Source of the DNA: an uncultured Muribaculaceae bacterium
Lineage (GTDB): Bacteria; Bacteroidota; Bacteroidia; Bacteroidales; Muribaculaceae
DNA: 42,718 bases
NCBI GenBank assembly: GCA_947176745.1
Contig: CAMWRV010000021.1
Coordinates: forward strand, 1 to 42,718
Direction of reading: 5' to 3'
The notes under the pieces: generated by a model
What the model was told of the DNA's origin: nothing
Seen by the model: the letters and a program-made list of their open reading frames with translations, nothing else
Databases searched by the model: none
Translations under genes and position numbers: made by a program
Shown: piece by piece, positions 5,498 through 40,338 of the stretch
Position numbering within the stretch: position 1 is the stretch's first letter
Layout: each line of letters starts with the position of its first letter

Positions 5498-7249
5498 ATG
5501 AAATCACGATTTCTTTATGCTCTGGCAGCATTGATGCTGCCGGCTCTACCCTCCTTGGCCGACGGGTTCACCATTTACTATGACAATTCCGCCACACAAT
5601 GGGAAAGTGTCGGAATACATTACTGGGGCAACCTGCAGACCGAATGGCCCGGCATCGAGATCGACCATGTGGATGGCGATATCTGGGCTTACACCTTCCC
5701 CTCGACGCCGTCAAGTGCAACCCGCTTTCTTTTCAAGCACGCCACTCTCGAAGGCGACAGCTACCAGACAGCCGATTCATCCCAGGCTCCGGCCAACGGA
5801 CATCTCTATAAAGGGGCCGGCGGAGAAAAAGGGAAATTGACAGACGAGGGAGTCTATACCGGAGATCCGGCACCGACAACCGCCACAGTGACAGCGAATC
5901 CGCGCACCGGCACACGTTTCTCTGACCAGATAACCGTAACTCTTACAGTCTCTCCGTCGGTTCCGATCAGATACACCACCGACGGGAGCACGCCGACAGC
6001 AGCATCTCCGGTCTATTCCTCGCCGCTCACATTCAGCAAGTCCACAGAGCTCCGCACCCTGACAGTAACCGACGAAGGAGTCGAGAAGACCCAGACCTTC
6101 ATCTATACGAAGCGCAACATAATCGAAGCTGTCAACGGAAAACTTGAGACCGAATACTACCGTGTAAATCCCGACGGAAAGAACGGCAGCAACCGCACGG
6201 TCAACGTGCAATTCACAATGCACCCAGGCACCAACTACCAGTGCACAGCCGACAACGCGCTGTCCAACTGGACGGAAAACGATCTGATCTGTCAGGGTGT
6301 GGCCCGCGACATAGCCTCGGCTTTCAGAGGGAAGCATGAATATCCGGTCATCGACTCTTACGCGGTCTATGCCGCCTACGACACCGACAACCTCTATCTC
6401 GGCGTACAGTACGTCTATGCCGTGTGGGATGCCGCAGGTGACGGAAAATCCGACAACGACAGACACCGTCCCTGGATGATGGACGGCCGCATAATGCTCG
6501 CTTTCGACCTTGACCCCGACAAGGAATTCGAGGGTGTGCTCACAAACGGCAACACCATATGGGACGCCGACGGACAGTATAACGTGATGCGCAACGGCAC
6601 AGACTGCATCTGGCTCGGCAACACAAAACCGACAGTCGGTGTGCCCGCGCTCTTCTTCCCCGACGCAAACGGCACGACAAGCTATGACGAACCTTACTGC
6701 GTCACTTTCGGCAGCGAGCCGTTCTATGGCGTGGCCAACGGACTTCTCCCCGACATCGAGCACATATGGGGACAGGCTGATTTCGGATATGACCCCGAAG
6801 AACTGCGCACAAACGAAGGATTTGTCGATCTCATCGGCGAGGTGGCACGCGACAAACACACATTCTACGAATGGAAGTTCCCCCTCTCGAAACTCGGAGT
6901 TACCGAACAGTATATCAAAGACAACGGCATCGGCGTCATGGTAATCGACACATACGGACAGGGAGCGATCGGATCAACCCCCTACGATCCGTCAGTGTTC
7001 GACAACGCGGCCACATCATACTCCAAAGATCCCTCGACAAGCGCGGAAAAAGAGGACACCGACATCTTCACCTTCCGTCATGCACGCATAGGTGGCGACA
7101 TCGAATCGGGCGTGAACGCGATCTCCGCCGAAGCAGACGAGAGCGCAGCCGCCGAATACTACACCATCGACGGACGACGCGTGGCAGAACCCGCACAGGG
7201 ACTCTACATCGTGCGCCGCGGAGGCAAAGCCACCAAAGTCATATTCTGA
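5498..7249 (+). CDS. secreted modular glycan-binding protein with C-terminal sorting tail
   Basis: The 583-residue protein has a signal peptide (1-21, cleavage after SLA). Residues about 23-105 resemble starch-binding modules of the CBM26/25 type (aromatic FTIYY, HYWG, EWPG, WAYTFP). Residues about 128-205 match the chitobiase/hexosaminidase C-terminal fold (IRYTTDGSTPT). A large region at about 210-530, with YDTDNLYLGVQY and FDLDPD, resembles CBM9/DOMON-like carbohydrate-binding domains. The end (YYTIDGRRV ... GLYIVRRGGKATKVIF) is a type A-like sorting tail. No glycosidase catalytic domain is recognised. It probably binds extracellular glycans, though the substrate is unknown. It has its own promoter upstream and is separated from the B12 locus by a second promoter. 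Confidence 0.75.
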   Translation: MKSRFLYALAALMLPALPSLADGFTIYYDNSATQWESVGIHYWGNLQTEWPGIEIDHVDGDIWAYTFPSTPSSATRFLFKHATLEGDSYQTADSSQAPANGHLYKGAGGEKGKLTDEGVYTGDPAPTTATVTANPRTGTRFSDQITVTLTVSPSVPIRYTTDGSTPTAASPVYSSPLTFSKSTELRTLTVTDEGVEKTQTFIYTKRNIIEAVNGKLETEYYRVNPDGKNGSNRTVNVQFTMHPGTNYQCTADNALSNWTENDLICQGVARDIASAFRGKHEYPVIDSYAVYAAYDTDNLYLGVQYVYAVWDAAGDGKSDNDRHRPWMMDGRIMLAFDLDPDKEFEGVLTNGNTIWDADGQYNVMRNGTDCIWLGNTKPTVGVPALFFPDANGTTSYDEPYCVTFGSEPFYGVANGLLPDIEHIWGQADFGYDPEELRTNEGFVDLIGEVARDKHTFYEWKFPLSKLGVTEQYIKDNGIGVMVIDTYGQGAIGSTPYDPSVFDNAATSYSKDPSTSAEKEDTDIFTFRHARIGGDIESGVNAISAEADESAAAEYYTIDGRRVAEPAQGLYIVRRGGKATKVIF

Positions 7250-7324
7250 TCCCGGCGCCGGGTCTGGCCCAGGGTCCGGCGCAGTCCATGTCTCGCTCCG
7301 TCCGGCAAGTGTGTTCCGATTTTT

Positions 7325-7356
7325 TTTGGAAGATCGGGAATATTTGATTAAATTTG
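7325..7356 (+). promoter_or_regulatory. promoter of the vitamin B12 locus
   Basis: TTTG at 7325-7328 and a perfect TAAATTTG at 7349-7356 are separated by 20 bp. Transcription would start near 7363, immediately before the cobalamin riboswitch, which fixes this as the promoter of the B12 locus. Confidence 0.85.
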
Positions 7357-7367
7357 CCGCCGGAAAA

Positions 7368-7560
7368 CGGTATCCTGCCCAAGAGAGGGAATGAGGATCA
7401 AAAGGGAATCCGGTGAGAATCCGGAACAGTACCCGCTGCTGTAAGTCCACCCACAGAGACTTCGCACGGCCATTGGGACACGGTGTCCCGAGAAGGCGCG
7501 AAGATCTCGGACAAGTCAGAAGACCTGCCGTTGACCCACATACGACAACGCCTGCGGGAC
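7368..7560 (+). promoter_or_regulatory. cobalamin riboswitch
   Basis: The stretch has the conserved core blocks in order: AAGGGAATCCGGTGAGAATC (7401-7420) leading into the CAGTACCCGCTGCTGTAA block (7436-7444 at its end), then a GGCCATTGGG block near 7468-7477, GAGAAGGCG near 7490-7498, and the B12 box AGTCAGAAGACCTGCC (7514-7529). It lies between a promoter at 7325-7356 and a terminator hairpin at 7647-7689, followed by the btuB start at 7705. In this class adenosylcobalamin binding lowers expression of transport genes. The outer limits are approximate because the P1 helix and the kissing-loop partner were not folded computationally. Confidence 0.93.
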
Positions 7561-7646
7561 AATGGGCAGATGATCGGCATAAGCAGACAGCGAGACAAAA
7601 GTCTGGCGTGCGTCCGCGCACGCGGACCGGCGCGCAAATACCATAC

Positions 7647-7689
7647 AATCCCGTCGGCGTATCCCCGGATGCGCAGACGGGATTTTTTT
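7647..7689 (+). terminator. intrinsic terminator of the cobalamin riboswitch
   Basis: The 9-bp outer stem 7647-7655 / 7676-7684 (AATCCCGTC with GACGGGATT) encloses a second 8-bp stem (GCGTATCC with GGATGCGC, one G-T pair) and runs into seven T residues at 7683-7689. It ends 15 bp before the btuB ATG. The position shows that the riboswitch can act by premature transcription termination. Confidence 0.85.
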
Positions 7690-7704
7690 GCGCCCCGACA
7701 CACC

Positions 7705-9705
7705 ATGAAACAGACATTGACTCTGACCGCGGCTCTGCTCGCCACATATCTCAATGCACACGCCTCAGCCACTGAGGCGGCTGACAGCACACGCCATCTC
7801 GACGAAATCGTCGTCTCTGCCTCACGGCCGGGGAGCGACGTCATTCCGGCGCAGACACTTTCGGGCGAGGAGCTGAAAGGACTCAACTCCAACAGCGTCG
7901 CCGACGCCCTGCGATACTTCTCGGGGGTGCAGGTCAAAGACTATGGAGGCGTCGGAGGCATCAAGACCGTCAATATCCGGTCGATGGGCACAAACCATAC
8001 CGGCGTGGTCTACGACGGCGTCGAACTGGGCAACGCACAGAACGGACAGATCGACCTCGGACAATTCTCACTCGACAACATCGAGGCCCTTTCTCTCTAC
8101 AACGGCCAGAAAAGCGAGATTCTGCAGCCGGCCAAAGACTTCGGGTCGGCCGGAACGATTTACATGCGCACCCGCACGCCGCAGTTCGGCGAGGGGGAGA
8201 CTTATCACGCACGAATGACGGTAAGGACCGGCTCGTTCGATCTTCTGAACCCATCGGCGCTCATAGAAGTGAAACTCAGCGAGACAGTGAAGGCCTCGCT
8301 GAGCGCCGAGTGGGTCAACTCAAGCGGCAAGTACAAGTTCCGCTACCGGCGCGTCAATCCGGCCGGAGAACTCGCCTACGACACTGTGGCAACACGCCAG
8401 AACGGCGACATCAACGCCACCCGGCTCGAACTCAACACTTACGGGGCTCTGCGCAACGGCTCATGGATGGCCAAAGTCTACAATTACAACTCCGAACGCG
8501 GAGTGCCCGGCGCCATCGTCAACAATGTCTGGCGGCGCGGCGAGCGCATCTGGGACACGAACTCGTTCGCACAGGCACGATACAGCGGTTTCTTCGGCAG
8601 ATTCTCCACTCTCAACAACGTCAAATATTCCGCCTACCGCACCCACTACGTCAACAACGACGACAAGCAGGTGAAGATCGACAACCTCTACCGACAGAAA
8701 GAGATATATTTCTCTTCGGCCAACGAATACGAGATCTCCGGCATATGGCGCGTATCGGCAAGCTATGACTTCATGTGGAACACGCTCGATGCCGATGTCT
8801 ACGGATTCGTAAAGCCTGACCGCATATCGAATTTCATATCGGCGGCCTCTGCGCTCGACCTTTCCCGCTTCCGTCTGCAGGCAAGCTGCCTGGCCACATT
8901 CATACATGACCGCATCCAGGGGCAGGAGGCACCCGCCGACAAGCATGTGCTGACTCCGGCGGTGTTCGCATCGGTCATTCCGCTGCGCAACCGCGACTTC
9001 TCTATCCGCGCCTTCTTCAAGCAGTCGTTCCGCATGCCGACATTCAACGACCTCTATTACGCCGACATGGGCAACTCGAAGCTAAATCCCGAACGTGTCA
9101 CCCAGTATAACGCCGGCCTGCTCTACGACCATTCGTCGCGCACATCGTTTGTCAGCGCGGCCCGGGTCAGCGCCGACGTATACTACAACCGTGTCCGCGA
9201 CAAGATCGTGGCGTATCCCAAAGGGCAGCAGTTCAGATGGACAATGCTCAACCTCGGGCTCGTCGACATACGCGGAGTGGATGTCAGCGCGCTCATAACC
9301 GTCAATCCGGTCGATGAACTCTACATCACCGCCCGCGCCCAATACACGTTCCAGAGGGCGATCGACATCACCGATCCGTCAGACAACTACTACCGCGACC
9401 AGATTCCATACATACCGCGCAATTCGGGCGCGGCTGTAGCCAACGCGCAGTGGCGCGGATGGGGACTCAACTATTCCTGGATATACGTCGGAGAACGCTA
9501 CAACCAGCAGGAAAACATACGCTACAACTACACCCAGCCCTGGTATACCTCCGACATTTCCGTCAGCAAGGATCTCAGACTCGGCAGGTTGTCGCTCCGC
9601 GCCCTGCTTGAGATCAACAACCTGCTGAGCCAGGACTACGACGTCATACTGAACTATCCGATGCCTAAGCGCAACTTCCGCATCACCATAACCGCCGAGA
9701 TCTGA
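7705..9705 (+). CDS. btuB: TonB-dependent outer-membrane vitamin B12 receptor BtuB
   Basis: The 666-residue outer-membrane receptor takes up cobalamin using TonB energy. The ATG at 7705 gives a clean signal peptide (MKQTLTLTAALLATYLNAHA) and follows the terminator; the reading frame is open upstream but runs through the riboswitch, so earlier starts are rejected. After the signal comes a TonB-box-like LDEIVVSAS, a plug domain (about 45-150, with VADALRYFSGVQVKDYGG) and a 22-strand-type barrel with the common motif FRMPTFNDLYYADMGN. The riboswitch and the BtuG-type neighbour identify the substrate. It lacks an N-terminal carboxypeptidase-like extension of the SusC kind, as expected for BtuB. 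Confidence 0.93.
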   Translation: MKQTLTLTAALLATYLNAHASATEAADSTRHLDEIVVSASRPGSDVIPAQTLSGEELKGLNSNSVADALRYFSGVQVKDYGGVGGIKTVNIRSMGTNHTGVVYDGVELGNAQNGQIDLGQFSLDNIEALSLYNGQKSEILQPAKDFGSAGTIYMRTRTPQFGEGETYHARMTVRTGSFDLLNPSALIEVKLSETVKASLSAEWVNSSGKYKFRYRRVNPAGELAYDTVATRQNGDINATRLELNTYGALRNGSWMAKVYNYNSERGVPGAIVNNVWRRGERIWDTNSFAQARYSGFFGRFSTLNNVKYSAYRTHYVNNDDKQVKIDNLYRQKEIYFSSANEYEISGIWRVSASYDFMWNTLDADVYGFVKPDRISNFISAASALDLSRFRLQASCLATFIHDRIQGQEAPADKHVLTPAVFASVIPLRNRDFSIRAFFKQSFRMPTFNDLYYADMGNSKLNPERVTQYNAGLLYDHSSRTSFVSAARVSADVYYNRVRDKIVAYPKGQQFRWTMLNLGLVDIRGVDVSALITVNPVDELYITARAQYTFQRAIDITDPSDNYYRDQIPYIPRNSGAAVANAQWRGWGLNYSWIYVGERYNQQENIRYNYTQPWYTSDISVSKDLRLGRLSLRALLEINNLLSQDYDVILNYPMPKRNFRITITAEI

Positions 9706-9723
9706 CCAGCAACAACAACAGAA

Positions 9724-10881
9724 ATGAAACGGATAAAGAGATTTTTCTTTTATTTTTTGCCACTCCTGTCGGTGACCACAGGCTGTCGCGAGGACGAGCT
9801 TGTGGTTCCGACGGAGTATGACATCATCCCCGAATACCCGGCGGCCGACACACGCATCCGCGGCTTCTACCTGGTCAACGAGGGAAACATGGGGTCGAAC
9901 AAGTGTACGCTCGACTATTTCGACTACCTCACCGGGCTATATGCCCGCAATTTCTATGCCGAGCGCAATCCCGACGTAGTGAAGGAACTCGGCGACGTGG
10001 GCAACGACATCGGCATATACGGATCGAAGCTATATGTCGTTGTGAACTGCTCGCACAAGGTCGAGGTGATGGATGCCCGCAGCGGCATACGGCTCGGCCA
10101 GATCGACATACCCAACTGCCGCTATGTGAGGTTTCACCGTGGCAAGGCCTACGTCAGCAGCTATGTCGGCCCGGTGCTGATCGACGCCAACGCACCCAAG
10201 GGTGCCGTCTACGAGGTCGACACCACATCCCTTGCCGTGACACGCAAGGTCACCGTCGGATACCAGCCCGAGGAGATGGAGGTGGTCGACGACTATATGT
10301 ATGTGGCCAATTCGGGGGGATACCGCGCCCCGCAGTACGACAACACCGTGTCGGTAATCCAGATGATCGACTTCAAGCAGGTCAGGCAGATTCCCGTCGG
10401 CATAAACCTGCACCGCCTCCGCAAAGACAGCCACGGCCAGATATGGGTCAGCTCGCGCGGAGACTACCAGACAAGACCGTCGCGTCTCTACGTGCTCGCC
10501 AAGAAGAAGGGCTACAATACCATGGAGGTAACCGACACGATCGCAACGGCATGCTCAAACATGGCCATAAAAGGGGATTCGCTCTATTTCTATGCTACGG
10601 AGTGGAATAATTACACGGCCTCCAACACCGTCAGCTACGGAATCATCGATGTGCGCACCCATGAAATCGTATCGACCGGATTCATAACCGACGGCACAGA
10701 GAAGGAGATCACAATTCCATACGGAATAGCCATCCACCCCGAGACCGGCGACATATTCGTGACTGACGCAAAGAATTACGTATCGTCGGGCACGCTCTAC
10801 TGTTTCGACCGCGAAGGGCGGAAGAAGTGGAGCGTGCGAACCGGCGACATACCCGCCCACATAACATTCCTGCCCCGATGA
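9724..10881 (+). CDS. btuG: surface lipoprotein beta-propeller, BtuG family
   Basis: The 385-residue protein has a lipobox ending TTGC21, followed by RED, the acidic pattern that directs Bacteroidota lipoproteins to the cell surface. Residues about 45-385 are a YncE/DUF5074-like seven-bladed propeller (repeated IYGSKLYVV, VDDYMYVANSGG, YGIAIHPETGDIFVTDA units). In Bacteroides, BtuG lies next to BtuB, binds cobalamin very tightly and hands it to the barrel; gene order here is the same. It starts 18 bp after btuB with an AC-rich leader, and its stop overlaps the next ATG by 4 bp. The symbol rests on locus and domain, not on a search. Confidence 0.85.
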   Translation: MKRIKRFFFYFLPLLSVTTGCREDELVVPTEYDIIPEYPAADTRIRGFYLVNEGNMGSNKCTLDYFDYLTGLYARNFYAERNPDVVKELGDVGNDIGIYGSKLYVVVNCSHKVEVMDARSGIRLGQIDIPNCRYVRFHRGKAYVSSYVGPVLIDANAPKGAVYEVDTTSLAVTRKVTVGYQPEEMEVVDDYMYVANSGGYRAPQYDNTVSVIQMIDFKQVRQIPVGINLHRLRKDSHGQIWVSSRGDYQTRPSRLYVLAKKKGYNTMEVTDTIATACSNMAIKGDSLYFYATEWNNYTASNTVSYGIIDVRTHEIVSTGFITDGTEKEITIPYGIAIHPETGDIFVTDAKNYVSSGTLYCFDREGRKKWSVRTGDIPAHITFLPR

Positions 10882-12149
10882 GAACCGCCCGCATTATCAT
10901 CCCCGCATGTACGGCCGCCCTGCTGTCGGGCTGCACAGCCGACATTCCCACAGTGAGCCTCGGCATCGACGACACGTACTACATAAACCGCATGCAGAAG
11001 CTCGATCTGCACCCTGCACTGACCGGCAGCGCATACAGATGGACCGTGACCCGACCTGACGGAACAACGGAAACCGCAGCCGAGACACGCGACTTCATTT
11101 TCATCGACGCCGAGGAGGGACGCTATTCGCTGAAGTTCGAGATCATAGATCCCGACACCCCCTATGAACATGAGTTCACGGTCAATGTGCTTCACGAGGA
11201 GATAGAATACAGTCCCTACATAGCACGCGTCTATGAATACAACCCTGCCCCGGGCCAGTTCGTCAACAAGATGCCCGAATACGAGGAGGGAGACACATAT
11301 ACCGACATGACGCGCAAAGCCGAAGAATCCATATCAGGCACCAACGACATCATGATCACATTGGGTGGATATGGGGGTTACGTCACGTTCGGATTCGACC
11401 ACACGGTGATCAACATTCCGGGCGAAGCTGATTTCCGCATATGGGGGAACTGCTTCTACGAGCTTACCGATCCCGACCGCAAAGGGGGATCGGCCGAACC
11501 GGGCATAGTCATGGTGAGCTATGACACCAACTGCAACGGGCTGCCCGACGATGAATGGTACGAGCTTGCCGGCAGCGAATACCGGTCCGACGCCACACGC
11601 CACAATTATTCGCTGACCTACAGCCGCCCCGACCCTCAGCGGCAGATCGTGACCGACGAAGAGAACAGCATCGACGACCTCTACTACATCCGCTGGCACG
11701 ACAACGAGGGCACGGAGGGTTACATGCCGAAAAACGTGTTCCACACGCAAGACTACTATCCGCGCTGGGTCAGCGACGACTCCATCACATTCTCAGGCTC
11801 GCTTCTCGCGCCCAACGGGAAAGACATAAGCGGATACGGCACATACTACGTGCTCTACAGCTATCCGTGGGGATATGTCGACAACCACCCCAACGAGTAT
11901 GCCGACCTCAATTCGTTCGACATCGGCAATGCCGTTGACAACGAGGGAAAACCGGTAAGCCTCCCCGGCGCCGACTTCATTCGCGTCTACACGGGCGTGA
12001 ACCAGTATTGCGGCTGGCTCGGGGAGACCTCGACAGAATTGAGCCGCGCACAGGATCTGCACATACAGCTCCCCGGCGCCTTTCCCGACGATCCACTGCC
12101 CGGCAACTCCGGCTCCTCCCTGAAGCGGAATCATCACAAACAACCATAA
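10878..12149 (+). CDS. B12-locus surface lipoprotein with PKD-like N-terminus
   Basis: The 423-residue protein starts at an ATG overlapping the btuG stop; earlier in-frame codons lie inside btuG and are rejected. The lipobox is LLSGC19. Residues about 25-110 look like a PKD/Ig-like beta sandwich (YRWTVTRPDG, YSLKFEIIDPD). The remainder contains an EF-hand/dockerin-like loop DTNCNGLPDDEWYEL near residue 217 and many aromatic residues (YYVLYSYPWGYVDNHPNEYADL). Proteins of this kind are known from other Bacteroidota btuB-btuG loci and are predicted to be surface exposed, but their exact role is unclear to me. Calcium binding by the loop is inference. Unlike BtuG it has no strong acidic run after the Cys. 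Confidence 0.75.
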   Translation: MRTARIIIPACTAALLSGCTADIPTVSLGIDDTYYINRMQKLDLHPALTGSAYRWTVTRPDGTTETAAETRDFIFIDAEEGRYSLKFEIIDPDTPYEHEFTVNVLHEEIEYSPYIARVYEYNPAPGQFVNKMPEYEEGDTYTDMTRKAEESISGTNDIMITLGGYGGYVTFGFDHTVINIPGEADFRIWGNCFYELTDPDRKGGSAEPGIVMVSYDTNCNGLPDDEWYELAGSEYRSDATRHNYSLTYSRPDPQRQIVTDEENSIDDLYYIRWHDNEGTEGYMPKNVFHTQDYYPRWVSDDSITFSGSLLAPNGKDISGYGTYYVLYSYPWGYVDNHPNEYADLNSFDIGNAVDNEGKPVSLPGADFIRVYTGVNQYCGWLGETSTELSRAQDLHIQLPGAFPDDPLPGNSGSSLKRNHHKQP

Positions 12150-12155
12150 ACCATC

Positions 12156-14489
12156 ATGAAACAGACCTTGACACTGACCGCAGCTCTTGCGGCGGTCATG
12201 TCCGTATCGACATTGACAGCCTCAGCCTCGCCAGTCACGTCGATCGAGGACACCGAAATCCATGTGACAGTCAGCATGCCTCCGACTCCGATAGCCTCTC
12301 TTCTGAGATATCAGCCGGCAGACGCGCACGACGCACTCTTCGACCTCGAAGAACTAATTGTCACCACTCCCGACAAGTATATCATCGATACCGAGGCGGG
12401 AACAATCGAGATTCTTGAGGGAGCGGAAGACGCCATCTATACCGTATATCCGAGAGGCGACCGGTCCGTGTCGGGACTTCTCGGCTTCACCATAACACGC
12501 AACGCCGTGACCGACGTGCGCCTCAGCGGCATCGAAGGAGACGAGATCGCACTCGAACTCCACGACATTCTCGCGCTACGCACGGAGACAACCCCGGCCG
12601 ACGCCGAAAACAAGTCCGTGTCGTTCAGGCTTGAGAACGCATCGGCCGACGGCATGGCCACCACCTACACCGTCGGCGGATCGGAAAAATTCACCGAGCT
12701 TGTCACCTACCACGCCGGCACGTTCGACCTTGTACTCACCTCAGTGGCCAATCCGGCGGTCACCCGCACGTATCATGTCTCGGTCAGCGATCTTCTCCCC
12801 GACGAAACCTCAGGCAACCATACTGACGGCACATTCTGGCTGAACGAGGAATGGTTCACCCACAAGAACGGCTCTGTGACATACCTAAGGACTCCGCTCC
12901 CGGAGGATGAGAACGACATCGTATATCATGCCTACTCGCGACAGAATGAAGACGCCTGCTTCGGCGCGACCTCGCAATACGGCATGATATACGCCGACAA
13001 ACTGTTTGTCATGTCAAAGCAGGAGAACGACAAAGGCGATATCCGCTCCAACGGCGGCGGGCGGCTTGTCGTGGCCGACGCCCGGACACTGCGCCGTCTC
13101 GCCTCTTTCGACGAAATCGGAGGCGACGGGCGCGCGTGTGTCGGCGCGGGAGCCGGAAAAGCCTATATCGGCACCCACTCGGGCATCCGCGTGCTGACAT
13201 GGGATGACGATAGTTTCACCCTGTCTGACACCGACATTCCGGGCATCAGCAACGACACCGAGGGGGGAGGCTCCGACATCGGCGGCAACCAACAGCTCTA
13301 CAACAAGCAGATCGGCGACATGGTCCGCGCCGGCCGGTATGTCTACGCCCTGCAGCAGGGAACCGGAGTCCACGTCATCGACACGGAAACCGACATGGCC
13401 GTCCGCACCATACCCGACACCGGAGTGCAGGGAATAACCCAGACAGCCGACGGCCACGTGTGGTACGCATCGACTATGAACGCTCCGAAAAACCGCTCCA
13501 TCCTGACTGAAATAGATCCTGACACCACAGAAAAGATCCGCGAGACTGAAGTGCCCGGAAGCATCGGGTGCAGCTGGGGATCGTGGAGATCGACCAATTT
13601 CTTCGCATCGACCGCCGGGAACATGCTTTTCTGGAACGGCGGAGCATCCGACATCACATCAAGCGGAGGCACCCTCTACAGATGGGACACCGAAGGCGAT
13701 CCGTCGGATCTGGAGCCGTTCTACGTCTTCCCCCGCACCGAGGGACTGTTTCCGGGAGTCTACCGGCAGATCTACGCCACCATGCGCCACGACAGCCGCA
13801 CCAATGCCATTCTTTTCGCCACCACCACCGCTCCGAGCGGAAATTACCGCTACAACTGGCTCAACTTCATCGACGCTGAATCTGGCGAACTCCTTTCGGA
13901 AATCAGACTCAGAGACTACTACTGGTTTCCGTCGATACCGATTTTCCCCGACGCTTACGCACCGGAATTCATCGACATCGCCCCCCTGTCGCTTGAAAGC
14001 GACGATGACGCCGCCACTCTCACACTCCGCGATCTTGCCTTCGACAACGACAATATCGGCTACAACATCTGCGTGACACGCGCACAGGATGCGGAAGAGC
14101 GATCCGGCGCGGCACTTGACGAGATTGCCGAAGTATCGGAAGAAAACGGCATCCTTACGCTCCGTCCGAGAAAACCGGGCAACGCCGCCCTCGCTCTTCG
14201 CGCCGAATCAAACGGCCGCGAGACCTACGCCTACATTCCGGTCAGCGTGTCGGTCAACTGCGATGTCTCCGGCTTCCCATCCGCCACAAAGACAATATCC
14301 GTTTCCGCAGGCAAAGCCCGTCTGCGCGGTTTCGACGGCGAGACATTCACAGTGACCGATGCATCAGGGCGAGTAGTATCATCATTCCGCGCGATCGGAG
14401 ACGACTGCACGGTCACTCTCATGCTCGACCGCGGAATCCACATCATGACAGACTCAGAGAACAGACATTCCATAAAATTCACGATATGA
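12156..14489 (+). CDS. secreted BtuG-like (DUF5074) propeller protein with accessory Ig-like domains
   Basis: The 777-residue protein has a signal peptide with no lipobox. Residues about 25-215 form an N-terminal beta-rich region of DUF5074 proteins. Residues about 220-600 are a propeller clearly related to the protein at 19503: both have the pattern SQYG/NQYG ... SKQEND/AKQEKD ... GGRxxVADA ... YxWFPSIPxF. An Ig-like region follows (about 610-710), then a weak sorting-tail-like end (VTDASGRVV ... KFTI). Its first 11 residues are identical to those of BtuB. It lies six bases after the upstream lipoprotein and overlaps the next gene by 4 bp, so it belongs to the riboswitch operon. Cobalamin or cobamide binding is inferred from family and locus. 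Confidence 0.75.
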   Translation: MKQTLTLTAALAAVMSVSTLTASASPVTSIEDTEIHVTVSMPPTPIASLLRYQPADAHDALFDLEELIVTTPDKYIIDTEAGTIEILEGAEDAIYTVYPRGDRSVSGLLGFTITRNAVTDVRLSGIEGDEIALELHDILALRTETTPADAENKSVSFRLENASADGMATTYTVGGSEKFTELVTYHAGTFDLVLTSVANPAVTRTYHVSVSDLLPDETSGNHTDGTFWLNEEWFTHKNGSVTYLRTPLPEDENDIVYHAYSRQNEDACFGATSQYGMIYADKLFVMSKQENDKGDIRSNGGGRLVVADARTLRRLASFDEIGGDGRACVGAGAGKAYIGTHSGIRVLTWDDDSFTLSDTDIPGISNDTEGGGSDIGGNQQLYNKQIGDMVRAGRYVYALQQGTGVHVIDTETDMAVRTIPDTGVQGITQTADGHVWYASTMNAPKNRSILTEIDPDTTEKIRETEVPGSIGCSWGSWRSTNFFASTAGNMLFWNGGASDITSSGGTLYRWDTEGDPSDLEPFYVFPRTEGLFPGVYRQIYATMRHDSRTNAILFATTTAPSGNYRYNWLNFIDAESGELLSEIRLRDYYWFPSIPIFPDAYAPEFIDIAPLSLESDDDAATLTLRDLAFDNDNIGYNICVTRAQDAEERSGAALDEIAEVSEENGILTLRPRKPGNAALALRAESNGRETYAYIPVSVSVNCDVSGFPSATKTISVSAGKARLRGFDGETFTVTDASGRVVSSFRAIGDDCTVTLMLDRGIHIMTDSENRHSIKFTI

Positions 14490-15523
14490 ACACAAAACTG
14501 ATTTTCACAATTCCGGCTGCCGTCATAGCCCTGTCGGCAGGGGCATTCAATCTCGACTGGAACCGGATAGAGTTCTGGACGGGAGAGGGATCGTGCCGCT
14601 CCGCCCTTGTGGTGCAGTTTCAGGACAACGGCCCGAAGGAGGCTTATGTGTGGGGATTCAGATGGAACCCCGCCGATTATGAAGGAGGACAGCCCTCGGG
14701 TGAGGATATGTTCCGCGCTATTGCTGCGGCCAACGACGATATCCTTCTCTTCACACAATACACAGGCTGGATGGGGAGCACGGTCGACGGCATCGGATTC
14801 CAGTTCCCGGGCAATGAGAAAGTGGTCCGGCAGATTGAATACGATTTCGACGGCGCCAGCTCGGATCCGCGTGTCAGCTTCGACTATTTCACACCCAACG
14901 AACTGATGGGGCAGACAAAGGCTCCGGGCATGTTCACCCCCGTATACTGCCGGCGCGCCATTCAGGAAGCGGAGGCAACCAACATCATCGAACATCCGAT
15001 CAATGCGCTCGAATACGGCTATCCCGCCTACGACTACGACTGGTGGCAGCCCGGCAGCCCTCTCGACAACACCCGTCAGCGCTGGAACGCCGGGTGGTAT
15101 GACGGCTACTGGAGCTATTGGACCGGAGGCACGGATTCCGAGGAACTGAGTTATTCAGGACTCGGTTATTCATCAAGAAAACTGTCTGACGGTCAGGTTG
15201 ACGCATGGAAATACGCGCTTCTCGACGGCCCGGTCGTCTTCATGCCCGGCAGAGAAGGACGCCAGAATCTCCCTCCGCGGAGAATCGACGGCGAGACCGG
15301 AGCGTCCGAGCAATGGCACGATCTCAGCTACTCGCATCTCTACAACGAGACATCTGTCGGCAGCCCGGAAGCCCGTACTGACATCAACGCGGAAATATAC
15401 ACGCTGCATGGCACAAGAATCGGTTCGACAGCTGTGGAAGATCTCGCCCGGACCGTTGACGCCCTGCCTCACGGATGCTACGTGATCAGACAGGGAAACA
15501 AATCGACAAAACTCATAAAATAA
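14486..15523 (+). CDS. secreted Trp-rich B12-locus protein (candidate BtuH-type)
   Basis: The 345-residue protein has a signal peptide (1-20, ending AGAF) and no lipobox. The mature part begins with EFWTGEGSCRSALVVQF and VWGFRWNP, followed by GWYDGYWSYWTGG and SYSGLGYSSRKLSDGQVDAW. The same blocks occur in the N-terminus of the next protein, so they define one domain of about 240 residues. It ends in a sorting-like tail (EIYTLHGTRI ... HGCYVIRQGNKSTKLIK). BtuH, a second type of B12-binding surface protein, is known from Bacteroides btu loci; I infer a possible match from locus and pattern only. Three 15-bp repeats follow its stop. Confidence 0.65.
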   Translation: MNTKLIFTIPAAVIALSAGAFNLDWNRIEFWTGEGSCRSALVVQFQDNGPKEAYVWGFRWNPADYEGGQPSGEDMFRAIAAANDDILLFTQYTGWMGSTVDGIGFQFPGNEKVVRQIEYDFDGASSDPRVSFDYFTPNELMGQTKAPGMFTPVYCRRAIQEAEATNIIEHPINALEYGYPAYDYDWWQPGSPLDNTRQRWNAGWYDGYWSYWTGGTDSEELSYSGLGYSSRKLSDGQVDAWKYALLDGPVVFMPGREGRQNLPPRRIDGETGASEQWHDLSYSHLYNETSVGSPEARTDINAEIYTLHGTRIGSTAVEDLARTVDALPHGCYVIRQGNKSTKLIK

Positions 15524-15564
15524 ACACAACAACCATAAACACAACAACCATAAACACAACAACT
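15520..15564 (+). repeat. three tandem 15-bp repeats at a gene junction
   Basis: ATAAACACAACAACC is repeated at 15520-15534 and 15535-15549, with a third copy at 15550-15564 that differs in its last base. The first copy contains the TAA stop of the upstream gene and the array ends 9 bp before the next ATG. It is AC-rich and unstructured, like other leaders here. Confidence 0.9.
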
Positions 15565-15573
15565 GACAAAACA

Positions 15574-18500
15574 ATGAAGACACGCTTATTGGCCGGCATT
15601 GCCCTCATGGCGCTTGCAGCCGGCTCTCAGCTTGCGGCCAGACGCATTCCCGCCAGAGTGCAGGGCACGGACTATGCCGCCACACTCCCTGCCGACGGAC
15701 GCCAGAAAGCATCCGACTGGGAATGGGATCCCAACCCTGACGCTCCGGCACTTCCGATGAATGAATTCACATTCGACGACATCGAGAACTGGACCGGAAC
15801 GGGCGAGAACAAGGCTGCCCTCGTGATCCAGTGGAACGACCCCCGCGAGACTCACGCCATAGTTTTCGGCTACCGCTGGGACGGCCTGGCCACCGGAACT
15901 GACATGATAAAGGCCGTGGTCAAGAACAATCCGCGACTGTACACTCTGATGCAGTATACAAATGTATCCTCTCCCACCGACCCGCTCGGCGGATATACTA
16001 TCAACGGATTCGGGTGGGACGCAGACAATGACGGCGACATCGCACTCGTTGACACAAAAGATGGTGAGATCTACACCTCGGAAGATGGCTTTTTCGAGCA
16101 TCCGAGAGGATATGTGCCCGGATCCGGAGGCAGTTCTGATTATGACTACGACGACTGGCTGGCTCTCGACGAGGACGATTACTGGGGAGCCGGATGGTTT
16201 CTGAGTTACTGGAGCTATTGGGTCGGTCCGCTCGGTGAGACTCTCCTTTATTCAAACTGGGGAGCGTCAGGACGCGTGCTTGAAGACGGTGCGTGCGACG
16301 GATGGAATTTCTCCCTCAACATGTACCCCAGCGACTGGAAGGAATTCAAATCCGCGCCATCACTTATACCTGAAGGAGCGAAGACCGAATTTGCTGTCGG
16401 CGACCTTTTCTATAAGCTCATAGACTTTTCGAAAGGTACCGTCAAAGTTGTCAACCCCTCTGTGCTGACCACTATCGAAAAGGCGGCCTACAGGGATTTC
16501 GACAACGCCGACATCGTGATTCCCTCCACTTTCAGCGAAGGGGAACAGACCTACACGGTAATCGAGATAGACGACGAAGCATTCGCCGATGTCGCGGGTA
16601 TTGTCTCGGTCACAATACCGGCATCAGTCAGCAAGATCGGAGCCCGCGCATTCTTATGGAATGAAGGTCTTGTGGAAATAAAGGGCGCCGACGGTACTGA
16701 CCTTGACAAAACGTTGACAAGCATAGGTGAAGAAGCCTTCAAAGGCTGCGTGTCGCTGCGCTCACTGGTTCTGCCGGAGGCCATGCGCGTCATTCCTAAA
16801 GGTGCATACATGTATTCTCCTCTCGCCGACAACCTGACCGTTCCGTCGACAGTCGAGGAAATATCCGATGAGGCTTTCGCATACACTCAGATAAAGGATA
16901 TATACATCCCGGCCTCAGTCAGAAAGATTGGAAACAAGGCATTCTACGGCAAACTTGTCTCGTCGGTAAAGTCGGACTCCTTCTACCCTGCTGAACTTGA
17001 CACCGAGGCATTCCTCGACAACATCTACTCATCGGCTACCCTTACTGTACCCGACGGTTTCACCGGCACGTATGCGGAAGCCGCCGGCTGGAAACGGTTC
17101 TCACGCACTGACGTGATGACTGTCGCGGTCAACACCGGCGATACGTTCTCCCTTGACGGGGTGACATACAATGTGACCGACACATCGGAAGAATCACCCT
17201 CGCTCAAGGTATCGTATGCGAAAGTCGACGGCAAACCTGACCGCACGAAGATAGCGGCAGCCAACAAGGCCGCATATACGGGAGCTGTAACGGTGCCTGA
17301 AAAAATCCGCCTCATGGGTCGCGATTACAAGGTGACTGCCATCAATGACTCGGCATTCTACGGCGCATCCGAGATGACCTCGCTCTCAATCTCCGCGAAG
17401 GTCGAGACGATCGGAGCACACACCTTTTATGACTGCACAAAGCTCGCCGAGGTCACACTCCCCTCGACAGTAAAGGAACTCGGCACATATGCATTCTCAT
17501 ATTCAGGCATAAAATCGATCATTCTTCCCGAAGGAACAGAGAGACTCGGCGACCGCGTCTTCTTCCAGTGCTCCGCATTGGAATCTGTCAACATTCCTGA
17601 ATCTCTGACAGCCATTCCTTCTTATTGCTTCTCCTACTGCAAGTCGTTGGAAAGCCTTGTCTTCGGCGACAATATAAAGGAATTCGGAACTTATGCCATG
17701 CAGAACTGCTCAAGCCTGACAAGCGTAACTCTTCCCGAATCACTCAAATCTATTTCTACCGGCATGTTCTCCTCATGCGCCTCTCTGGAGACTGCCGCGA
17801 TACCGGCATCGGTAACTGAAATCGGCAACACTGCATTCTCCGGATGCTCAAGTCTCGTGTTGACACTGCATGAAGGCATCACCACAATCGGCACAGAGGC
17901 GTTCAAAGGTATCGCCAACACTTCGTTCAGGCTTCCCGAAACGGTGACAGCCGTCAGCAACGGCCTCTTCAACGGCTGCCCCAATCTGACCGACCTCACA
18001 ATAGGAACCGGAGTAAAGTCAATCGGATCAAGCGCATTCGCCAACTGCAAAATGCTCGAAAACCTGACAGTATCCGATTCCTCCGAAGGGGATGACTCAC
18101 GCGAACGCCTGTCCGCTTCGGGAATCTCATTCCCCGCATCACTCACGTCGATCGGTAACTACGCTTTCCAGAACTGTGCAGCCATCAGGTCTGTCATAAT
18201 CCCCGAAACAGTTACAAGCCTCGGCACTTACGTGTTCCAGGGATCAGGAATCACCGAGGCGGAACTTCCCAATTCGATCACAACCGGGCCTTCGAGCCTG
18301 TTCTATTCCTGCGCGAACCTCAAGAAAGTGACTCTCGGCAACAGCATGAAGTCGATCGGTCAGAACATGTTCCGTGACTGCACGGCTCTTGAGACAATCT
18401 CTGTCAAGGATGAGGAGGAGACTCCTGATACTCCGGCAATCAATCTGCCCGCGACTCTGACAACCATCGGCACATGGGCTTTCACAAACTGCAAAAACAT

Positions 18501-19422
18501 GACCTCGATCGTCATTCCTGACGGCGTCACATCTATCGGTGCGAACGATTTCGACGGCTGCTCGGCTCTTGCCTCGGTGACTCTCCCCGCCAGACTGACT
18601 TCGATCGGCAACTATGCGTTCCGCAACACCGCCATTACCGAACTGACACTTCCGGCTACCACCGGCGACATGGCGTACACATCAGACATCCTTTACGGAT
18701 GCCCCGAAGGTACAAAAGTCTATGTCTGCAACACCGGGACTCCCAAAAAGGCAGGCTCGAATCTCTGGCGTATCGCCACTGGAAAATATGCCGATATAAT
18801 AGTGGCCGCCGGAAAGAAATCCGATTATATGGCAGCCGCAGGCTGGAAAAGCTCCGTGATCTCGGAAGTGATGCCCGACGGAATTGAATGCGAATACACC
18901 GTTGACGACAACGGCTCGGATGACGTGGAGATCAGAGTCGAGGCCGGTTTCACATATGAGACAGAACTGCCCGCAATGTTCCGCGAAGCCAACGATTCCT
19001 GCCTCTTCACAGACCAGGCCGAATTCAATGTGCTCTACCGTGAGGCGACGACAACGGAAGATACTCCTGAAAGCATAGCTGAGGAGGGAGACGACGCCGG
19101 CATTTCCGGGTTCACCTCCACTCCCCTCTCGCTTGACACCGAAGGGACAGGCTCATTCTTCATGACTCGCCCCGGGAAGACCACAGCCTATGATGTCATG
19201 CTCTCCGCCGCGACAGGAGAGACAACCGTGACAGGAACTCCCGGAACGGTCACGCTCACCGGCAAAATTGAGACAGGCATGACTGTTGTGACTGACGGTT
19301 GCGACGCAGAGACAGAGATCTATACTCTTGACGGCGTCAGAGTAAACGGAAACAGCGGACTCCAACCCGGAATCTACGTAACCGTGCGACATGGAAAGAG
19401 CGACAAAATCATAGTAAAGTAA
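15574..19422 (+). CDS. secreted fusion of the B12-locus Trp-rich domain with BspA-type leucine-rich repeats
   Basis: The 1282-residue protein starts at ATG 15574, which gives a signal peptide (MKTRLLAGIALMALAAGSQLAA); earlier in-frame codons cross the previous gene's end and the tandem repeats. Residues about 60-255 repeat the domain of the preceding gene (NWTGTGENKAALVIQW, FGYRWDG, SYWSYWVGP, NWGASGRVLEDGACDGW). Two blocks of about 23-residue BspA/LRR_5 repeats follow, roughly 300-505 and 563-1085, with the recurring pattern IPxSVxxIGxxAFxxCxxL; each block closes with the YAEAAGWKRF/YMAAAGWKSS cap seen in BspA proteins. The end (EIYTLDGVRVN ... GIYVTVRHGKSDKIIVK) is a sorting tail. BspA repeats usually mediate adhesion; their role in a B12 locus is unknown. 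Confidence 0.75.
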   Translation: MKTRLLAGIALMALAAGSQLAARRIPARVQGTDYAATLPADGRQKASDWEWDPNPDAPALPMNEFTFDDIENWTGTGENKAALVIQWNDPRETHAIVFGYRWDGLATGTDMIKAVVKNNPRLYTLMQYTNVSSPTDPLGGYTINGFGWDADNDGDIALVDTKDGEIYTSEDGFFEHPRGYVPGSGGSSDYDYDDWLALDEDDYWGAGWFLSYWSYWVGPLGETLLYSNWGASGRVLEDGACDGWNFSLNMYPSDWKEFKSAPSLIPEGAKTEFAVGDLFYKLIDFSKGTVKVVNPSVLTTIEKAAYRDFDNADIVIPSTFSEGEQTYTVIEIDDEAFADVAGIVSVTIPASVSKIGARAFLWNEGLVEIKGADGTDLDKTLTSIGEEAFKGCVSLRSLVLPEAMRVIPKGAYMYSPLADNLTVPSTVEEISDEAFAYTQIKDIYIPASVRKIGNKAFYGKLVSSVKSDSFYPAELDTEAFLDNIYSSATLTVPDGFTGTYAEAAGWKRFSRTDVMTVAVNTGDTFSLDGVTYNVTDTSEESPSLKVSYAKVDGKPDRTKIAAANKAAYTGAVTVPEKIRLMGRDYKVTAINDSAFYGASEMTSLSISAKVETIGAHTFYDCTKLAEVTLPSTVKELGTYAFSYSGIKSIILPEGTERLGDRVFFQCSALESVNIPESLTAIPSYCFSYCKSLESLVFGDNIKEFGTYAMQNCSSLTSVTLPESLKSISTGMFSSCASLETAAIPASVTEIGNTAFSGCSSLVLTLHEGITTIGTEAFKGIANTSFRLPETVTAVSNGLFNGCPNLTDLTIGTGVKSIGSSAFANCKMLENLTVSDSSEGDDSRERLSASGISFPASLTSIGNYAFQNCAAIRSVIIPETVTSLGTYVFQGSGITEAELPNSITTGPSSLFYSCANLKKVTLGNSMKSIGQNMFRDCTALETISVKDEEETPDTPAINLPATLTTIGTWAFTNCKNMTSIVIPDGVTSIGANDFDGCSALASVTLPARLTSIGNYAFRNTAITELTLPATTGDMAYTSDILYGCPEGTKVYVCNTGTPKKAGSNLWRIATGKYADIIVAAGKKSDYMAAAGWKSSVISEVMPDGIECEYTVDDNGSDDVEIRVEAGFTYETELPAMFREANDSCLFTDQAEFNVLYREATTTEDTPESIAEEGDDAGISGFTSTPLSLDTEGTGSFFMTRPGKTTAYDVMLSAATGETTVTGTPGTVTLTGKIETGMTVVTDGCDAETEIYTLDGVRVNGNSGLQPGIYVTVRHGKSDKIIVK

Positions 19423-19445
19423 CATATACCATAGTGATTACCGCC

Positions 19446-19480
19446 GGCGGGAGGGTTGTCTGCAATGGCATCCTCCCGCC
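19446..19480 (+). other. intercistronic GC-rich hairpin
   Basis: GGCGGGAGG (19446-19454) and CCTCCCGCC (19472-19480) form a perfect 9-bp stem over a 17-nt loop in the 80-bp gap before the last B12-locus gene. No T-run follows (AATTTCAC), so it is more likely an mRNA processing or stability element, or a weak attenuator, than a standard terminator. Confidence 0.6.
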
Positions 19481-19502
19481 AATTTCACTCAACACTACAA
19501 TC

Positions 19503-20876
19503 ATGAAAACAAAAATACTGCTGACGACAGCAATAGCGGCAGCCGCCTTTCAGACGGCATCCGCCGGCACTGACACCGACTATTCATCGGGCGTGTTTAT
19601 CGTCAACGAAGACTGGTACGGCCATCAGAACTCCACTGTCAACTACCTGCTGCCCGATGACCCTGACGGCGACTTCTGGCACTACCGTGTGATCCAGGCC
19701 GAAAACCCCGGACGCGAGCTGGGATGCACCAACCAGTACGGACAACTATGGCGCGGACGCCTCTACCTCATAGCCAAACAGGAAAAAGACCCCGGAGCCG
19801 ACATAACCGGAGGCCGAATCACAGTGGCAGACGCCGCCACAATGAAGATTCTTTTCCAGAGCGAACTGATCGACCCGTCGGGCAGGCAGTGCGATGGAAG
19901 AGGATTCGTCGGCATCGATGATCATAAAGGCTACATATCTACAAGCAACGGAATCTGGATCTTCGATCTCGACACCTATGAGGTCAAAGGCCAGATCGAG
20001 GGAACCGCCAACCCGAACGCGGGCGATGACAGACCGAACACCGACCCGACCGGTTCGCTATATCACGGGCAGTCAGGCTCGATGGTGCTTGCCGAAGGAA
20101 AAGTCTTCGCCGCTCACCAGCAGGCCGGACTTCTTATAATCGACACCGCGACCGACCGGCTCATAAAGACGATCCCGATGGATATCGTTCAGGAAAAAGC
20201 CGGCATAGGATCGGTGGTACGCGCAAAAGACGGCTCGCTCTGGCTGAGCGTTGCCCGCAACATTCAGGGCACCGGCACCACACTTCCTAACATGGTCAGG
20301 GTAGATCCGCGCACTTTCGAGACTGAAGTCATCGATATCGCAGAGGGAATGTATCCCCCCTCGAATTCGTGGTACGCCTGGACTCCCGACGCCTTCTGCG
20401 CATCGGCTGTCAACAACACTCTCTACTGGAAAGGGGGCTCGACAAGCTGGTTCACCGGCACCAAAATCTTTAGATTCGACGTCGACACACGCCGCATGGA
20501 AAAAATCATAGACCTCGACGAGGATGGCGAGAACTGGAAACTATACGGCTGCTCGATGCGAGTGCATCCGGTGACCGACGAGATATACATGTCGCTTTAT
20601 CATGAATTCAGCATCCCGACCTATGTCACACGACGCTACACAGCCGACGGCGTGAAGATTCGCGACTATGAAATGATCAGCAACTACTGGTTTCCCTCCA
20701 TCCCTCTTTTCGCTCAGGATCCCGACGCTCTCCCCTCTGGAGTACGAGCCGTGAGCGCTGACGACGATGGCGTAACCAGATACTACAACACCCAGGGTAT
20801 GGAGATTTCCGAACCGCAGCCCGGAGAAATCGTGATCGTGCGCCGCGGATCGAAAACCTTCAAAAAGGTGATGTAA
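19503..20876 (+). CDS. secreted BtuG-like (DUF5074) propeller protein with sorting tail
   Basis: The 457-residue protein starts at ATG 19503, giving a signal peptide ending QTASAG; no lipobox is present. The mature protein opens with GVFIVNEDWYGHQNSTVNYL, comparable to FYLVNEGNMGSNKCTLDYF of BtuG, and continues as a propeller (IFDLDTYEVKGQ, LIIDTATDRLIKTI, SLWLSVARNIQG, IFRFDVDTRRMEKI). It ends YYNTQGMEIS ... VIVRRGSKTFKKVM, a sorting-like tail. It is closest in pattern to the propeller of the protein at 12156. It is the last gene before an AT-rich spacer, with no promoter found ahead of it, and so probably ends the riboswitch operon. Cobamide binding is inference. Confidence 0.75.
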   Translation: MKTKILLTTAIAAAAFQTASAGTDTDYSSGVFIVNEDWYGHQNSTVNYLLPDDPDGDFWHYRVIQAENPGRELGCTNQYGQLWRGRLYLIAKQEKDPGADITGGRITVADAATMKILFQSELIDPSGRQCDGRGFVGIDDHKGYISTSNGIWIFDLDTYEVKGQIEGTANPNAGDDRPNTDPTGSLYHGQSGSMVLAEGKVFAAHQQAGLLIIDTATDRLIKTIPMDIVQEKAGIGSVVRAKDGSLWLSVARNIQGTGTTLPNMVRVDPRTFETEVIDIAEGMYPPSNSWYAWTPDAFCASAVNNTLYWKGGSTSWFTGTKIFRFDVDTRRMEKIIDLDEDGENWKLYGCSMRVHPVTDEIYMSLYHEFSIPTYVTRRYTADGVKIRDYEMISNYWFPSIPLFAQDPDALPSGVRAVSADDDGVTRYYNTQGMEISEPQPGEIVIVRRGSKTFKKVM

Positions 20877-21179: not shown

Positions 21180-21185
21180 CAACGT

Positions 21186-21253
21186 GTTTTTCATGGTATT
21201 AGATTTAAGGTTAGAGGATTAGTTGTCGTGAGACAATTAATCTTTTCTTTTTT
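21186..21253 (+). ncRNA. probable small RNA of about 65 nt
   Basis: A -7 element, a leader of about 27 nt containing ATTAGATTTAAGGTTA, and a strong intrinsic terminator follow one another with no room for a gene. From memory, very similar leader and hairpin strings (ATTAGATTTAAGG ... TTGTCGTGAGACAA) stand after promoters in other Bacteroidales, which suggests a conserved small RNA; I cannot name the class with certainty. The next gene downstream is on the opposite strand, so it is not that gene's leader. Confidence 0.55.
21213..21253 (+). terminator. intrinsic terminator of the small RNA
   Basis: GATTAGTTGTC (21217-21227) pairs with GACAATTAATC (21232-21242) with one G-T pair around a GTGA loop. 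G-T and A-T pairs extend the stem outward to 21213/21246. The right side runs into TTTTCTTTTTT. Confidence 0.8.
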
Positions 21254-40218: not shown

Positions 40219-40269
40219 AAGGAATCTCATCATTCCGTGCGGGAAGCCGCATGAATGGTGAGATTCCTT
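40219..40269. other. strong 51-nt intercistronic hairpin
   Basis: The arms 40219-40235 and 40253-40269 pair over 17 bp with one G-T pair, and an inner stem TGCGG/CCGCA (40238-40242 / 40247-40251) closes a GAAG loop. It begins 18 nt after the upstream stop. No T-run follows on either strand, so it is not a normal intrinsic terminator; mRNA 3'-end protection or processing fits better. Confidence 0.8.
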
Positions 40270-40338
40270 CCACAATACGGATATATGTCTTTTCAATCAA
40301 CACAAGCAGACCAACCTATTTTACATCAATTATCTAAA

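Follow-up and report, generated by a model that had tools for sequence, protein, structure and literature searches.

The cobamide loci of Bacteroides thetaiotaomicron (B. theta) include extra binding proteins beyond the btuB-btuG core (PMC8941943, PMC12751083). BtuG2 of this species is reported to strip vitamin B12 from human intrinsic factor, and no function is known for many of the accessory proteins that B12 loci of Bacteroidota encode (PMC6143338). DUF4465 represents a further B12-binding family (PMC13398666), and BtuL and BtuK2, which are encoded in B12 loci of B. theta, are described as not binding cobalamin, with BtuL promoting early vesicle release (PMC12751083). Burroughs et al. (2007) defined a transcobalamin-like clade of the soluble-ligand-binding beta-grasp (SLBB) superfamily and proposed a role in B12 scavenging; besides animals, the listed range of the clade comprised low-GC Gram-positives and planctomycetes and, more rarely, euryarchaea, and some members were noted to be fused to toroids or a propeller (PMC1796856). 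Here, we analyzed a seven-gene locus led by a cobalamin riboswitch, which lies at positions 7325 to 20876 of a 42,718-nucleotide (nt) contig from an uncultured Muribaculaceae bacterium (CAMWRV010000021.1 in assembly GCA_947176745.1; the whole contig is hereafter the window).

Like the B. theta loci (btuB/G/H/J/K/L; PMC8941943, PMC12751083, PMC10404256), this locus combines a cobalamin riboswitch, a btuB-btuG core, BtuH, and extra surface proteins. Unlike B. theta BtuGH, its BtuG and BtuH are separate genes, and in contrast to the B. theta loci, its four extra proteins (genes 4 to 7) show neither a lipobox nor a match to DUF4465 (BtuJ) but carry DUF5074 propellers and a tryptophan-rich (Trp-rich) domain. 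Gene 6 resembles the SLBB transcobalamin-like clade in its predicted fold, its secretion, the fusion or pairing of its domain type with a toroid (in two Actinomycetota records) or a propeller, and its proposed part in B12 scavenging, whereas DUF4430 is blind to the Trp-rich domain and the Bacteroidota partners are BtuBGH rather than CbiO/CbiQ. What appears to be new is a divergent member of the transcobalamin-type fold that Pfam does not see, that recurs in Bacteroidota btuBGH operons alongside BtuG-like propellers, and that apparently carries no lipid anchor. No prior report of a beta-domain of the intrinsic-factor/transcobalamin type in Bacteroidota was found in the open-licence literature, which did not cover the Degnan 2014 survey of such loci. 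Taken together, our results suggest that the locus is probably a B12-repressed corrinoid-capture operon, in which genes 4 to 7 would form a second, outer capture layer feeding BtuH/BtuBG.

Organization of the seven-gene locus

The features of the locus, all on the + strand, are as follows.

7325..7356, +, Bacteroidota-type -33/-7 promoter match, TTTG-N-TANNTTTG (motif scan)
7351..7546, +, cobalamin riboswitch aptamer RF00174 (103.8 bits, E 4.4e-25, gathering score 31.5)
7705..9705, +, btuB (gene 1), TonB-dependent B12 transporter with a Plug domain (nearest solved structure 8blw_A)
9724..10881, +, btuG (gene 2), propeller lipoprotein (8blw_B residues 12-361; DUF5074; lipobox by eye)
10878..12149, +, btuH (gene 3), lipoprotein with C-terminal BtuH domain (8blw_B residues 393-662; 7biz_A; lipobox by eye)
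12156..14489, +, gene 4, secreted protein with a DUF5074 propeller at 12825-13949 (8e-93; profile related to BtuG)
14486..15523, +, gene 5, secreted Trp-rich protein, domain at about 14546-15250 with a long insert (homologs; no Pfam match)
15574..19422, +, gene 6, secreted protein with an N-terminal Trp-rich domain predicted to be intrinsic-factor beta-domain-like (15754-16371) and BspA-type leucine-rich repeats
19446..19489, +, hairpin between genes 6 and 7 (-29 kcal/mol, z -4.3; 1 of 200 shuffles equally stable)
19503..20876, +, gene 7, secreted DUF5074 propeller at 19590-20714 (2.6e-119; profile related to BtuG)

The original prediction, made from the sequence alone, had placed a single promoter and a cobalamin riboswitch ahead of seven genes, and both were recovered: the promoter match at 7325 is the sole + strand -33/-7 match between 7001 and 21400 (4 such matches in the whole window versus 0.33 expected by chance), and the aptamer scored far above its gathering score. 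For btuB, btuH, gene 6, and gene 7, we chose as start the ATG ahead of the signal peptide, the mechanical open reading frames (ORFs) opening earlier (at 7483, 10827, 15475, and 19434, respectively). With these starts, the intergenic distances from gene 1 to gene 7 are 18, -4, 6, -4, 50, and 80 nt. The short gaps or 4-bp overlaps that had been described are seen at the first four junctions; the last two gaps are not quite so short, and the final one contains the strong hairpin. This hairpin is without a clear T-run and may serve in processing, stability, or attenuation. In the gap between genes 5 and 6 (15521-15573), a direct repeat of ~15 nt is present in three near-identical copies.

Gene 1 encodes a TonB-dependent receptor with a Plug domain, and its nearest relative among solved structures is the B12 transporter chain 8blw_A, named BtuB1 (E 1.4e-127); it stays below the cut-off of the NCBIfam equivalog TIGR01779 (BtuB), with 89.9 versus 599.7 bits. 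Gene 2 matched the propeller half of 8blw_B (residues 12-361, E 1.7e-39) and DUF5074 (4.5e-19), and gene 3 matched the C-terminal half of the same chain (residues 393-662, E 1e-71) as well as 7biz_A (E 1.7e-45), 7biz being BtuH2 (PMC10404256). Chain B of 8blw presumably corresponds to the BtuG1/BtuGH of the literature (PMC10404256, PMC12751083). Since genes 2 and 3 fall on the two halves of this chain, the locus represents a split version of the BtuB1-BtuGH system. The matches of gene 3 to the C-terminal half and to 7biz further indicated that the protein listed before as merely a second lipoprotein, whose lipobox is visible by eye, is BtuH. The usual btuB-btuG pair, against which the locus had been judged enlarged, is too narrow a yardstick, since B. 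theta locus 2 alone comprises bt1949-1957 (PMC8941943).

The 2.55-Mb draft genome also encodes MetH, the B12-dependent methionine synthase. A second B12 locus of the same genome (L056, contig C15, minus strand) carries an AdoCbl-II riboswitch (RF01689, 9531-9603), a second btuB (7496-9592), and a divergent btuG (6327-7436). A small RNA of the FopS family (RF04319, 65.1 bits) was detected at 21184-21250 of the window, ~300 nt past the operon and after an AT-rich gap.

Propellers and Trp-rich domains of genes 4 to 7

The Pfam scan placed DUF5074 in both gene 4 and gene 7, and the four DUF5074 matches of the organism's own genome all lie inside B12 loci, three in the seven-gene operon and one in the second locus. 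When used as single queries, genes 4 and 7 matched no BtuG structure. A profile of eight propellers of the gene 4/7 type matched 3dsm, which is BtuG2 (PMC6143338), at 1.1e-9 and similar chains at up to 1.8e-10; the match to 9s6c, a "quinoprotein amine dehydrogenase-like protein," was stronger (3.4e-27). Aligned by hhalign with gene 2 and six relatives, the "BtuG" sequences of this comparison being named by their similarity to gene 2, the gene 4/7-type propellers gave a probability of 98.8 and an E value of 7.2e-17 over 307 columns. By sequence, the propellers of genes 4 and 7 are divergent BtuG relatives, not orthologs. PDB entry 9s6c is their nearest solved relative; no paper describing it was found in the open-licence literature, and the accessible part of PMC13142918 does not mention it. 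In the same literature, as far as the texts were accessible, DUF5074 was found only in work on Elizabethkingia vesicles.

Genes 5 and 6 have in common the Trp-rich domain, with the signature GWYxGYWSYW...YSG.G...L.DG..DgW; the two domains are related by sequence, and 31 positions are conserved at 90% or more across an alignment of 60 sequences. Conserved residues include W148, Y152, W153, Y155, and W184, numbered by the first row of alignment A3. In gene 6, what follows the domain consists mostly of BspA-type leucine-rich repeats. Among the structures re-ranked by VIA-align, the best matches to the model of the gene 6 domain were the beta-domains of human intrinsic factor, transcobalamin, and haptocorrin, with 10-14% identity over 101-107 aligned residues of a span of ~176, such that some 70 residues are without a counterpart. 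Strands 62-69 and 80-88 of the model come after the helix and are candidates for the beta-hairpin insert that the clade has there. The Trp-rich domain of gene 6 is thus predicted, from this model, to take the intrinsic-factor/transcobalamin beta-domain fold.

Other assignments of the extra proteins were tried. A direct link of the Trp-rich domain to Pfam or DUF4430 was rejected for want of a match, and DUF4430 itself was present in only 1 of 198 sampled Bacteroidota genomes. Equally, a DUF4465/BtuJ identity of the extra proteins was not supported, as no DUF4465 match was obtained with the full proteins (E up to 1) or with the domain members (E up to 10). Gene 5 had no match among PDB sequences, and the Pfam scan found no alpha/alpha toroid among the window proteins.

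Two propellers and two Trp-rich proteins had been proposed for genes 4 to 7, and these domains were borne out; what had been missed is that the four proteins apparently do not look like lipoproteins, their N-termini showing no lipobox Cys when read by eye. In both flavobacterial fusions of a Trp-rich domain with DUF5074 that were tested, the C-terminus carries TIGR04183, the sorting domain of the type IX secretion system (T9SS), and the genome encodes PorV; on these two grounds, type IX export of genes 4 to 7 appears likely. A tail of the "G-x-Y-I" type, as in genes 5 and 6, also ends the secreted-looking proteins encoded at 5498-7249, 35552-37267, 37301-40201, and 40255-42576, and it is perhaps a lineage-specific T9SS sorting tail that escapes TIGR04183.

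Recurrence of the locus in Bacteroidota and beyond

The search for the same gene set in relatives that had been suggested with the original prediction was fruitful, with a match to gene 5 in 19 of the 61 genomes searched (17 among the 37 of the genus, the organism's own included). RF00174 was present in 17 of the 19 neighborhoods from the genus and order; in the other two, L049 and L050, the contig breaks off. The same genes occur in altered order in related genomes. Four loci (L039, L046, L051, and L052) have the Trp-rich domain fused to a gene-4-type propeller, and two (L044 and L054) have a riboswitch and a gene with the Trp-rich domain and leucine-rich repeats but no btu genes nearby.

A wider set of 80 loci from GTDB genomes, the best 80 of 179 confirmed Trp-domain relatives (the other 99 being more distant), gave a similar picture. 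A riboswitch lies upstream on the same strand in 65 of them, at a distance of 700 nt or less from the first Trp-domain gene in 10; btuB, btuG, and btuH are all upstream in 62 loci and at least one of them in 71, and a DUF5074 gene is on the strand in 73. These riboswitches were called with a sequence profile for which 18 riboswitches served as the training set, and Rfam, run on four of the 65 positives (L058, which is from Bacteroides salyersiae, L101, L109, and L128), confirmed all four. With 171 riboswitch matches in ~175 Mb (the genomes of 47 of the 80 loci), ~0.005 would be expected per 10-kb stretch of one strand. Fourteen of the 15 loci without a riboswitch end inside or just ahead of the operon, L066 being the one true exception; L068, L080, and L126 have neither a riboswitch nor a btu gene, the start of the Trp-domain gene lying no more than 150 nt from the locus end. 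Seven genomes besides the organism's own carried the domain in an even draw of the phylum, and RF00174 is found in seven of the eight loci taken from these seven, the eighth ending 1.5 kb upstream. The 80 loci share some contigs with the 19 neighborhoods, and the phylum draw has some in common with the 80, such that the three counts are not independent. Most loci of Chryseobacterium, Flavobacterium, and Epilithonimonas are short, comprising a riboswitch, btuB, btuG, btuH, and one fusion of the Trp-rich domain with DUF5074; L067 and L081 hold examples of such flavobacterial fusions. The gene order is thus real and far from chance, recurring with variations in related genomes and shortened in Flavobacteriia. 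Outside the phylum, a member of the Sedimentisphaerales (Planctomycetota) encodes a domain protein of 226 residues that ends in a PEP-CTERM tail and is preceded by a riboswitch of its own.

Relatives were also found in Actinomycetota. With an E limit of 1, the NCBIfam family SCO2322 (NF040672) matched 45 of the 60 domain members, the scores seen (14-29 bits) being far below its curated cut-off of 85. This family shares the YWSYW...G..dgW motif with the Trp-rich domain, the similarity being confined to the C-terminal part, and nothing on it was found in the open-licence literature. A search of plasmids brought up Embleya (E 3e-3), from which Streptomyces and Arthrobacter were reached, giving a total of five records; a plasmid search with a DUF4430 protein gave no match. 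When the Trp-domain and actinobacterial sets were aligned by hhalign, the probability was 97.7 (E 1.6e-12), the alignment spanning 42 columns, all in the YWSYW part. On a plasmid of Streptomyces sp. SAT1 (L162:6662-14468), the gene behind a riboswitch (41.8 bits) encodes a protein of 911 residues, in which one such domain is followed by alpha/alpha toroid repeats, whereas in transcobalamin the toroid comes first. The SAT1 locus further holds a second domain protein and energy-coupling factor (ECF) transporter genes, one of them for a CbiQ-type component; metE lies on the opposite strand. In Embleya sp. NBC_00888 (L161:12339-15110), a riboswitch of 32.2 bits (threshold 31.5) precedes an SCO2321-type toroid gene and an SCO2322-type gene, with metE nearby. 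As for the other three records, a riboswitch match is absent from L164 and L165 and only partial, and on the opposite strand, in L163. By their gene content, which includes secreted toroid and YWSYW-domain proteins, the SAT1 and Embleya loci look like candidate B12 uptake loci with transcobalamin-style binders.

Proposed mechanism and rival explanations

On the basis of the operon anatomy, conservation, homology, and predicted fold computed here, we propose co-expression, an export route, corrinoid binding, and hand-over as follows. Low intracellular cobalamin would allow the riboswitch to permit one transcript through the seven genes. BtuB with its BtuG lid would form the outer-membrane importer, and BtuH would be a lipoprotein B12 binder, roles that are established in B. 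theta and are assigned here through homology. Genes 5 and 6 would contribute a divergent SLBB domain like that of intrinsic factor and transcobalamin, while the BtuG-related propellers would come from genes 4 and 7. The four proteins would be exported with a standard signal peptide and probably through the T9SS, not by the lipoprotein route, which makes a further-out position or release possible. There, the beta-grasp domain may cap a corrinoid in the propeller cavity, by analogy with the transcobalamin beta-domain that lies over B12 in an alpha/alpha toroid; this sandwich is the boldest step of the proposal. The loaded proteins would then pass the corrinoid to BtuH/BtuBG. The multi-protein capture locus of the original prediction is well supported by the recurrent gene order and riboswitch, the BtuG-related propellers, and the predicted beta-domain fold, while corrinoid binding by genes 4 to 7 stays an inference.

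Several results weigh against this reading. None of 16 Trp-domain members matched any Pfam family, DUF4430 (PF14478) included, at E up to 10; the domain profile gave a probability of only 2 against one DUF4430 protein and no match among PDB sequences. VIA-align only re-ranks Foldseek candidates, and Foldseek alone returned no significant match for the gene 6 domain model (best E 0.16, probability 0.84). The gene 5 domain's own model was discarded, being of lower confidence (pLDDT, the predicted local distance difference test score, 74.6), weak outside the core, and without a useful structural match. With TIGR04183, the tail of gene 4 reached E 0.038, below the cut-off, and those of genes 5 to 7 gave no match. 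The actinobacterial link is limited to 42 C-terminal columns, and a riboswitch stands just ahead of such genes or their toroid partner in only two of the five records. The locus is patchy, as seen from the gene 5 match in only 17 of 37 genus genomes, and the Trp-rich domain occurs in just 8 of 395 genomes of the phylum draw, the organism's own included. L066 (Epilithonimonas hispanica) has btuG and btuH in two ORFs and a fused Trp-domain protein, with no cobalamin riboswitch found by Rfam within 10 kb upstream and no btuB match. Finally, the reported failure of BtuL and BtuK2 to bind cobalamin means that membership in a B12 locus is no proof of binding (PMC12751083).

BtuL, with its role in early vesicle release, is also the precedent for a rival explanation that we consider unlikely, in which genes 4 to 7 belong to the B12 regulon as scaffold, adhesin, or vesicle-release factors rather than corrinoid binders and the repeats of gene 6 bind mucin or cells. 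The bulk of gene 6, made up of BspA-type repeats, would suit it, but two flavobacterial fusions and the riboswitch-led planctomycete gene have the Trp-rich domain without detected leucine-rich repeats, the predicted fold of this domain is that of B12 carriers, and the propellers are related to BtuG. Leucine-rich repeat arrays are suited to protein contacts, and that of gene 6 is consistent with a different idea, namely, that the extra proteins strip host or foreign B12-binding proteins of their B12, or recognize a complex of corrinoid and protein, through contacts with those proteins and not with the free vitamin. Removal of B12 from human intrinsic factor by BtuG2 (PMC6143338) is in line with it; we nevertheless regard it as quite improbable, given that Chryseobacterium, Flavobacterium, and a planctomycete have the Trp-rich domain as well and Streptomyces has a related one, which indicates that the gut host alone did not shape the domain.

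The B12 operon could also end with btuH, with separate transcription, for another purpose, of everything from gene 4 (12156) onward or of just gene 7. The 50- and 80-nt gaps ahead of genes 6 and 7, the hairpin in the latter, and sigma-70-like matches on both strands (17 versus a shuffle mean of 8.3), which are not of the Bacteroidota promoter type, speak for such a break. It is very improbable in our view, since no internal -33/-7 match exists on the + strand, the same genes recur in relatives in changed order, gene-5-type or gene-6-type domains are found fused to gene-4-type domains, and in 10 of the 80 GTDB loci the riboswitch lies at most 700 nt from the first Trp-domain gene.

An outer capture layer fed by one riboswitch-controlled transcript is hence the explanation that we favor, and it has several implications. 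Two accessory proteins of Bacteroidota B12 loci would gain a predicted fold and a testable role, and the intrinsic-factor/transcobalamin beta-domain would be extended, on the strength of the model, to Bacteroidota and tied to btuBGH operons in Bacteroidales and Flavobacteriia. Candidate corrinoid binders are thereby offered, and the B12 carriers of humans can be compared with them in evolutionary terms. More speculatively, and with more doubt than confidence on our part, Bacteroidota may own an intrinsic-factor-like B12 trap, in which a divergent transcobalamin beta-type domain and a BtuG-type propeller, standing in for the alpha/alpha toroid, sandwich the corrinoid; such "corrinophores" would be exported by the T9SS, would be releasable in part, and would supply BtuBG. 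If this is true, then together with the actinobacterial riboswitch-led proteins that join a toroid to the domain, the two-domain B12 clamp of vertebrates would be one late form of an old and widespread bacterial design.

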